A DNA stretch of 64,000 nucleotides from Armatimonadota bacterium (GTDB lineage: Bacteria > Armatimonadota > Armatimonadia > Armatimonadales > Capsulimonadaceae). Made by a program: the position numbers and the translations under genes. The stretch lies in assembly GCA_019239955.1 (NCBI GenBank), contig JAFAZD010000289.1:1-64000 (forward strand), in the 5' to 3' direction. How positions within the stretch are numbered: position 1 is the first letter of the stretch; every line of letters begins with the position of its first letter. Below, piece by piece: positions 6,179-64,000 of the stretch. The notes under the pieces were generated by a model, which saw nothing but the letters and a program-made list of their open reading frames with translations, was not told where the DNA came from and did no database searches.

Positions 6179-6508
6179 GTGGTATCTCCTCAGCGCATCC
6201 AGCAAGTCACCGAAGAGATCGCCCGCCGCTTCCACCCGGATCGGATCATCCTGTTCGGCTCCTATGCCTACGGCACGCCGACCGAGGACTCCGATGTGGA
6301 CCTGCTGGTCGTGATGCCGTCTGAGGGGCGCGACATCAAGAAGGCCATCGAGATCCGGCAGGCCATCGGCGTGAATTTCGCAATGGATCTGCTGGTCTAC
6401 GACCCGGACTATCTGCGACAGCGTATCGAATGGGAAGATTGGTTCTTGCGCGAAATTACGCAAAAGGGCAAAGTGCTGTATGAAGCCGATCACGCAGGAG
6501 TGGGTTGA
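6179..6508 (+). CDS. Minimal nucleotidyltransferase (MNT) antitoxin-like protein
   Basis: ILFGSYAYGTPTEDSDVDLLVVMP (GS-x-DxD nucleotidyltransferase motif); GTG start; overlaps downstream HEPN gene. Confidence 0.85.
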   Translation: MVSPQRIQQVTEEIARRFHPDRIILFGSYAYGTPTEDSDVDLLVVMPSEGRDIKKAIEIRQAIGVNFAMDLLVYDPDYLRQRIEWEDWFLREITQKGKVLYEADHAGVG

Positions 6509-6869
6509 CAAAGCCGAGGGAGATTGGGCAGCGCTTGGCCGCGAACTGCGGGCGCGCAAGGCTCCCAACTATGATGACGCCTGCTTCCATGCTCAACAAT
6601 GTGCGGAGAGGTACCTCAAAGCAAGGCTTCAAGAAGCATCTATTGCCTTCCCGCGAACGCATGACCTGATTGATCTGCTTAACCTGGCGCTCCCTGTCGA
6701 ACCCCTCTGGAGCGCCCTTTTCCCAGCCGCGAATGCCATTAGCGGCTACGCCGTCGCCTTCCGCTATCCCGGCAGGAGCGCCACAAGAACAGAGGCACGA
6801 GAGGCGCAACGTTTCTGCCGCACCATCCGCGAGGCGGTGCGGCTCAGCCTGGGTCTGCCCGTAGGATGA
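6480..6869 (+). CDS. HEPN-domain protein (toxin partner of MNT)
   Basis: WVDKAEGDWAALGRELRARKAPNYDDACFHAQQCAERYLKARLQ...FPRTHDLIDLL typical HEPN; 29-nt overlap with MNT. Confidence 0.85.
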   Translation: MKPITQEWVDKAEGDWAALGRELRARKAPNYDDACFHAQQCAERYLKARLQEASIAFPRTHDLIDLLNLALPVEPLWSALFPAANAISGYAVAFRYPGRSATRTEAREAQRFCRTIREAVRLSLGLPVG

Positions 6870-61117: not shown

Positions 61118-62875
<1,758 letters not shown>

Positions 62876-62880
62876 GGCGA

Positions 62881-63135
62881 TCAGCCGGGCAGAACGGGGA
62901 CGAGCAGGATTTTCAGATGTTCGTGGTCCTCGATGTCGTTTTCGGCCTCCGCCAGACGCCCATAATAGTCATAGGAGCGGATGTCATCACGGTCGGGCTG
63001 AACGACGACCTCCCACCAGTCATCTCCCGTGTGACGGATGCCGGTCTCAATCACGTTGAGGCGGTAATCCGCCGGCTGGTACGGTTCCAGATAACGCCGG
63101 ACCGTCTCAATCACCTGCTGCTTTTCGTCAACCAT
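62881..63135 (-). CDS. Small alpha/beta protein of unknown function (paralog of 63533-63820)
   Basis: MVDEKQQVIETVRRYLEPYQPADYRLNVIETGIRHTGDDWWEVVVQPDRDD...VEDHEHLKILLVPVLPG-like; overlaps HEPN gene by 8 nt. Confidence 0.65.
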   Translation of the reverse strand: MVDEKQQVIETVRRYLEPYQPADYRLNVIETGIRHTGDDWWEVVVQPDRDDIRSYDYYGRLAEAENDIEDHEHLKILLVPVLPG

Positions 63136-63505
63136 AATCCACCCCAAGCAATCGAAACAATGCAGCGGCATCACGCATCGCGTCGCGGGCAATCGCCGCA
63201 TCCAGAGTGCGTCGCTGATAGTCGGCGACGATTCGCGCCGCGTAGAGGCGCCGGATAATGGCGATACAGTCGGCTTTCGCTTTGGCCTCAAGCGGCAGGT
63301 GCAGTTTGATCAGTTTCGGCATCCCTTTGTGATTGGGCGTCTCCTGCTGGTCGCCGAATGCCACCCCATTCGCGGCTAACTCATGCGCCAAGACGCTGAA
63401 CGCCGCATAATAGAAGCGGCTCACGCAGCTACGATAGCGCCCCGTCTGATACAGTTCACGCGCCGCCTGGAAGCTGTCAACGCCGATCTCCTGCCATGTC
63501 GCCAA
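63128..63505 (-). CDS. HEPN-domain protein
   Basis: SFQAARELYQTGRYRSCVSRFYYAAFSVLAHELAANG...RRLYAARIVADYQ. Confidence 0.75.
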   Translation of the reverse strand: MATWQEIGVDSFQAARELYQTGRYRSCVSRFYYAAFSVLAHELAANGVAFGDQQETPNHKGMPKLIKLHLPLEAKAKADCIAIIRRLYAARIVADYQRRTLDAAIARDAMRDAAALFRLLGVDYG

Positions 63506-63532
63506 GATTCTCGCCCTCCCTGGTGCGCCGTC

Positions 63533-63820
63533 TCAGGACGCGCGGTTCATCCAGTCCGGGACGTCGGGCAGGAGAACGACATGGGCGTTGTCCAGCTTTT
63601 TCAGGTCGCGCTCCACCTTCTCCACGCGGGCGTTATACTCGGCGGGGTTGAGGCTGCTGCGCTGGGAACTGACGATCACGTACCACCAGCGCCCCTCCTT
63701 GTGCGTGACGTCGGGGAGTACGTCCAGCGTGTGGTCGGCGGGCTGATACGGCGCGAGGCGCTCCTCGACGAGGCGGACGATCTCCTGCGCCGTCCGTTCC
63801 GGCGTCGTTGTCTTGTTCAT
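63533..63820 (-). CDS. Small protein of unknown function (paralog of 62881-63135)
   Basis: MNKTTTPERTAQEIVRLVEERLAPYQPADHTLDVLPDVTHKEGRWWYVIVSSQ...LDNAHVVLLPDVPDW. Confidence 0.65.
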   Translation of the reverse strand: MNKTTTPERTAQEIVRLVEERLAPYQPADHTLDVLPDVTHKEGRWWYVIVSSQRSSLNPAEYNARVEKVERDLKKLDNAHVVLLPDVPDWMNRAS

Positions 63821-63848
63821 GGCTGCACCCATAATTGCCTGTGAGCCT

Positions 63849-64000
63849 CAGACTTTTCCTTCTTTTTCCTTGCGTCCCCGCGCGCCGTACCAGGCCGTCC
63901 CGAGTCCGGCGGCAATCCCCACCACGACGAACAGGGCCAGGTTGACGAGCAGGTTCTTGACCGTATCCAAGCCCAGGCGGTCGGTGATAGCATTGTAGAC
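63849..64000 (-). CDS. C-terminal end of a membrane protein (runs off right edge)
   Basis: ...VYNAITDRLGLDTVKNLLVNLALFVVVGIAAGLGTAWYGARGRKEKEGKV*. Confidence 0.55.

Follow-up and report, generated by a model that had tools for sequence, protein, structure and literature searches.

Does a HEPN protein that lies between two paralogous small proteins in an Armatimonadota genome belong to a toxin-antitoxin unit, and if so, which of its neighbours belong with it? The window (the whole stretch of DNA analysed, 64,000 nucleotides of contig JAFAZD010000289.1) carries on its minus strand the genes for small protein A (63533-63820; 95 residues, pI 5.9), for the HEPN protein (63128-63505; 125 residues, TTG start) and for small protein B (62881-63135; 84 residues, pI 4.5). 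The HEPN gene stops at 63128 and the ATG of B is at 63135, an overlap of 8 nt (63128-63135) that may couple the translation of the two genes. The first-pass annotation had described these reading frames, their order, strand and overlap, and the ORF coordinates agree with it throughout. Its view that A and B are paralogs was also borne out, as tblastn with B as the query recovered A (E 7.7e-11, 31% identity), and no MNT partner for the HEPN was found nearby at 62881-63820. The pair at 6179-6869, from which it had distinguished this locus, is a genuine MNT-HEPN pair (GSX10DXD present; PF05168, E 2e-19), and served as an internal control in our scan for the GSX10DXD motif.

Reading downstream on the minus strand, the order is the end of a gene for a small membrane protein (63848-64000), A, HEPN, B, a SUKH-like gene (62375-62875; 166 residues), ilvC (61118-62191), which flanks the module downstream, and leuA; past the end of the window, the contig carries ilvN and ilvB. 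With ilvN/ilvB and the membrane protein upstream and ilvC/leuA downstream, the A, HEPN and B genes thus sit inside a branched-chain amino-acid (ilv) operon, a setting that, like the SUKH-like gene, the first-pass annotation had not described. The small membrane protein, also seen in L146 and L147, is kept between ilvN and ilvC in the family and is fast-evolving (dN/dS about 0.27). SUKH (SMI1/KNR4) proteins are often immunity proteins, and the SUKH-like gene behind B (PF09346, E 4.6e-4, below the gathering score) was considered as a member of the module; this was rejected, as no such gene was found beside the other modules examined. Lying between B and ilvC, low in G+C and missing at the corresponding site in relatives, it is a passenger.

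The presence of paralogs on either side of the HEPN in the window, together with the occurrence of A beside the module in two genomes of the same family (G001 and G005), would suit a single three-gene unit in which two antitoxins flank one toxin. In G001 and G005, however, A follows B, the order being membrane protein, HEPN, B, A, ilvC; A lies upstream of the HEPN only in the genome of the window, and is absent from nearly all other HEPN-B modules. The ilv operon of two further genomes of the family, G002 and G006, contains neither A nor HEPN-B, and leaves about 28-53 nt between the membrane protein gene and ilvC. Comparison of G001 with G005 gave a synonymous divergence (pS) of 0.64 for both HEPN and B but of 0.36 for A, similar to the membrane protein (0.41), ilvN (0.38) and ilvC (0.40); the value for leuA was 0.48. 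By their bootstrap intervals, HEPN and B exceed ilvN and ilvC, and HEPN exceeds A; the intervals of B and A just touch, and that of leuA overlaps those of HEPN and B. The G+C content of A (0.653) is that of its host (0.661 for the window), whereas those of HEPN (0.595), B (0.580) and the SUKH-like gene (0.527) are lower, and windows as AT-rich as the block formed by these last three make up 1%. A is also under strong constraint (dN/dS 0.05). From pS, gene order and G+C we conclude that A tracks the ilv operon and that HEPN-B has a separate history. The idea of an A-HEPN-B unit is thus not supported, and a trio with two antitoxins is very improbable; A is probably an orphan or spare antitoxin, outside the conserved unit.

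Relatives were searched with B and then a B profile was run against 291 Armatimonadota genomes, the loci being scanned in six frames with profiles. Nearly all B-like genes, marginal B matches included, had a HEPN immediately upstream; one match to B, in G260, was spurious. These HEPNs, detected by the profile search, overturned a simpler account in which A and B are ordinary ilv-operon genes and the HEPN is a chance insertion. The reverse search with a HEPN profile gave 32 loci at or above 64.8 bits and two frameshifted ones, and synteny, which the first-pass annotation had suggested searching for, was evident, with a B-like gene directly downstream of the HEPN in 33 of these 34 loci. Such recurrence puts the adjacency of HEPN and B far beyond chance. 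HEPNs of lower score were MNT-linked or came from other systems. The exception, G078:C496 (L118 451-1110), is alone among the HEPNs with B-linked scores in lacking B; the gene behind it encodes a 91-residue protein that also looks αββαβ by eye but does not match the B profile.

In intact loci, the distance from the HEPN stop to the B start varied between -29 and +13 nt (-8 in the window). Profile comparison placed the divergent B proteins of L110, L111 and L114-L117 in the family, L112 and L113 being the least certain. When 53 HEPNs were placed in a tree, those linked to MNT formed one clade (support 97/96); the 28 B-linked HEPNs were compatible with a single group, with a weak support of 62/41 that counts against a toxin-antitoxin reading. 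Distances among HEPNs and among B proteins were correlated (26 pairs; Mantel r 0.47, 0 of 20,000 permutations). The layout is generally that of type II-like toxin-antitoxin systems, with two small, adjacent or overlapping, co-directional genes kept as a pair. Thus, the conserved unit is HEPN-B, without A. What stands of the toxin-antitoxin-like unit first proposed is a recurrent, MNT-less HEPN joined to a paralogous small protein, with toxin-antitoxin anatomy; the sandwich of three genes does not. The genome of the window holds a second, divergent HEPN-B module (L117 1690-2445, G000:C265), immediately ahead of mnmG, whose start it overlaps, and also another tandem pair of genes from the A/B family (L028 8925-9527 of G000:C40, minus strand), which ends at the contig edge.

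The module is patchy, occurring in about 26 of the 291 Armatimonadota genomes, at many unrelated loci and in up to four copies per genome. This sporadic distribution, the empty ilv sites and the separate pS history indicate that HEPN-B has moved as a unit. With flanks confirmed by NCBIfam, modules were found between ftsA and ftsZ, iscS and iscU, rpsJ and rplC, and etfB and etfA, as well as downstream of sufB, pdhC (E2), leuB (twice), guaA and groEL, or upstream of mnmG and leuS; the host operons include the ilv, leu and gua operons. The remaining HEPN-B modules stand alone. No B, and no HEPN of the B-linked clade, was found outside the phylum in roughly a hundred genomes, and searches of plasmids and viral contigs gave no HEPN-B match.

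Addiction modules do not usually reside in essential operons, and the location of HEPN-B could point to a regulatory role, which counts against a toxin-antitoxin reading. MtlR is a non-toxic HEPN protein of the mannitol operon, and HEPN-B might likewise act in cis on its own operon as an RNA-processing or regulatory unit, for example by cleaving or binding the polycistronic mRNA. The position of modules inside housekeeping operons such as ftsA/ftsZ, rpsJ/rplC, iscS/iscU, etfB/etfA and ilvN/ilvC, or next to leuB, guaA, sufB, pdhC, mnmG and leuS, would agree with this, as would the resemblance of the predicted fold of B to KH-II RNA-binding domains. The operons are unrelated, however, and each is occupied only sporadically, with empty sites in relatives, which makes a fixed role in any single operon unlikely. 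Moreover, the catalytic residues of the HEPN are invariant, unlike those of MtlR, and B is acidic with no evident KH GXXG motif in the alignment. We regard a cis-acting unit as improbable. The intra-operon habitat itself may, speculatively, offer a safe harbour, coupled expression or a means of sensing host shut-off.

The HEPN protein belongs to PF05168 (HEPN-T; E 2.3e-8, 34.6 bits against a Pfam cut-off of 22), and its AF2 model (pLDDT 96) has as its best PDB match 2hsb (AF0298; TM 0.75). It also matches the HEPN_IX model of PADLOC (E 4e-4). The first-pass annotation had proposed a check for the Rx4-6H motif; the canonical motif is missing. Instead, RxxADY is present in 21 of 21 sequences, and a histidine within reach occurs in only one of them and is non-conserved. 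Residues R30, Y32, H59, R91, A94, D95 and Y96 are invariant in the same 21 proteins, and Y33 is kept in at least 90%. Use of a second histidine of this kind was proposed earlier for AF0298-type HEPN-T proteins (Anantharaman 2013; PMC3710099). For the HEPN of retron-Kva2, the substitutions H64A, R122A and Y40-42A are each reported to abolish defence, and the wild-type protein, once activated, to degrade tRNA (2026 preprint; PMC13405049). Profile alignment with this protein pairs the predicted catalytic H59 (codon 63329-63331, minus strand), in the loop after helix 2, with H64, the predicted catalytic R91 of RxxADY (63233-63235, minus) with R122, and Y32-Y33 of SRxYY (63407-63412, minus), with a predicted role in substrate positioning, with Y41-Y42, although the helix-3 segment that carries R91 and R122 scores poorly on its own. 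A helix-3 arginine, a histidine N-terminal to it and a conserved YY are thus all present, and by sequence the HEPN is assigned to the AF0298/retron-IX active-site type. This alignment with residues mutated in retron-Kva2, together with the 2hsb-like predicted fold, makes it likely that the HEPN is an active RNase.

According to the first-pass annotation, a HEPN devoid of catalytic residues, coupled with A- and B-like genes occurring widely without a HEPN, would speak against such a unit. The first half holds for the canonical Rx4-6H but not for the alternative H/R/YY site, which is invariant, and B without a HEPN is exceptional (four loci). Thus, the proposal of a toxin-antitoxin-like unit survives.

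B proteins are about 85 residues long and acidic (median pI 4.8, against 9.2 for the HEPNs), with a predicted αββαβ fold (AF2 pLDDT 93). The first-pass annotation had recognised no family for A and B, and searches of Pfam, NCBIfam, PADLOC, PHROGs and the PDB returned nothing significant. A match to Rad4 was discarded (E 0.006, below the model cut-off, in one member only). The Foldseek search gave no significant fold match for B (best E 6e-3); the nearest solved folds were KH-II, RbfA, CDF C-terminal and BolA-like domains (TM about 0.4-0.66, 8-20% identity), αββαβ folds of a SCOP d.52-like class. The resemblance to these domains is one of topology alone, B being acidic; for KH-II in particular there was neither a significant match nor an evident GXXG in the alignments. 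The GSX10DXD motif was absent from 34 A/B proteins and present in the control MNT of the window, so neutralisation by AMPylation is not expected of B. We also considered B as a shrunken MNT and set this aside, as the fold search placed MNT structures no higher than ranks 23 (TM 0.54) and 49 (TM 0.45) and the motif is absent; B may have a remote MNT origin. No DNA-binding domain for autoregulation was found in B, which, like the position of the predicted toxin gene in first place, the reverse of MNT-HEPN, counts against a toxin-antitoxin reading.

Among the surveyed loci, five have an interrupted HEPN next to an open B gene (TAA in G001 and in G032, TGA in G080, and frameshifts in C219 and C299 of G067), and four have B alone with no HEPN (G005:C99, G015:C114, G116:C415 and G018:C795). 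The solo B sites include positions between guaB3 and guaA, near argG and behind moaA. A broken B beside an intact HEPN was not found in the survey. Gene length alone gives p of about 0.08 for all five disruptions falling in the HEPN, and some of the stops or frameshifts may be errors of MAG assembly. The pattern resembles that of a toxin being lost while its antitoxin is kept. It bears on a second reading of the pair, as an effector of abortive infection or stress whose B protein is not a labile antitoxin but a sensor or regulatory subunit; B would remain part of the complex and, given a trigger, switch the RNase on, much as RT-msDNA-WH does in retron-Kva2. By active site, the nearest proven relative of the HEPN is indeed that of retron IX (PMC13405049); B itself, in contrast to many labile antitoxins, has a well-folded predicted structure (pLDDT 93), and some B proteins (L062, L063, L072 and L111) have a C-terminal extension of about 80 residues. 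Solo B genes and B beside broken HEPNs, however, fit a protector better than a sensor, no match was found in plasmid or viral contigs, and the loci read showed no obvious defence neighbours; we consider the effector reading unlikely.

HEPNs without MNT were also seen in other arrangements. In L135 (90-1782), L130 (1534-3217), L169 (168-1815) and L137, a protein of about 250 residues, which in L135 and L169 belongs to the TIGR04255 family, is followed by a protein of 170-200 residues without a family and then by the HEPN; this order also occurs outside Armatimonadota. In L122 (1819-2585) and L139 (788-1563), the HEPN is preceded by a protein of about 120-130 residues, possibly another type of HEPN partner; that of L122, when searched, fell in no family.

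We favour, at a probability of about two in three, a two-gene toxin-antitoxin module formed by a HEPN RNase toxin and B as a new proteic antitoxin. The HEPN would be a dimeric, metal-independent RNase in which H59, R91 and Y32-33 form a composite active site that replaces Rx4-6H; it would probably target tRNA or mRNA. B, encoded by the downstream gene that overlaps that of the HEPN, would bind the basic HEPN and block it by occlusion; when B is lost, the toxin would act. A would be a B paralog that the ilv operon has retained, and might serve as an orphan antitoxin able to cross-neutralise the HEPN. The toxicity and RNase activity of the HEPN, its binding and neutralisation by B, the role of A and any benefit to the cell are what we infer from the computed pattern. 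In a more elaborate version, which we hold to be conceivable but doubtful, HEPN-B is a mobile toxin-antitoxin lineage specific to Armatimonadota that swapped, or never had, an MNT and uses an αββαβ antitoxin. Lodged in essential operons (ftsA/ftsZ, rpsJ/rplC, iscS/iscU), it would tie the supply of B to operon expression, and transcription shut-off by phage or stress would starve the cell of B and free the RNase.

HEPN-B shares with the type VII HEPN-MNT (HepT/MntA) systems a HEPN with one small partner, a tight two-gene operon and a sporadic distribution, and true MNT-HEPN pairs are also present in Armatimonadota. It differs in that the partner is not an MNT and lies downstream instead of upstream, and in having RxxADY in place of RX4HXY with its AMPylated tyrosine. 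The type VII mechanism, polyadenylylation by MntA (PMC7641770), does not fit a partner without GSX10DXD, and neutralisation by B would differ from the AMPylation performed by MNT. Lacking two of its defining features, HEPN-B is outside this class. The HEPN of retron-Kva2 (a type IX retron) has the same non-canonical site (Y40-42/H64/R122), but HEPN-B has no reverse transcriptase, ncRNA or winged-helix partner, and B is unrelated to the winged-helix protein in length and predicted fold. As in the AF0298-like HEPN-T/UPF0332 proteins (2hsb) and AbiV, the arginine is kept, the histidine of Rx4-6H is replaced and a second conserved histidine lies in the loop between helices 2 and 3 (PMC3710099); a B-like partner is not described for those proteins. 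In the open-access literature, we found neither a B-like partner of a HEPN nor work on HEPN toxins of Armatimonadota. The new elements are the partner family B and the intra-operon habitat.

HEPN toxins rank with the most abundant toxins of prokaryotes. Those known so far are mainly paired with MNT, an enzyme that silences them by chemical means. If the toxin-antitoxin reading is true, a branch of the HEPNs is silenced by a small, non-enzymatic protein, and would show an RNase toxin changing its type of antitoxin. B would then provide a minimal, naturally occurring inhibitor for HEPN active sites of the retron type, and HEPN-B a testable case of toxin-antitoxin modules within essential operons.
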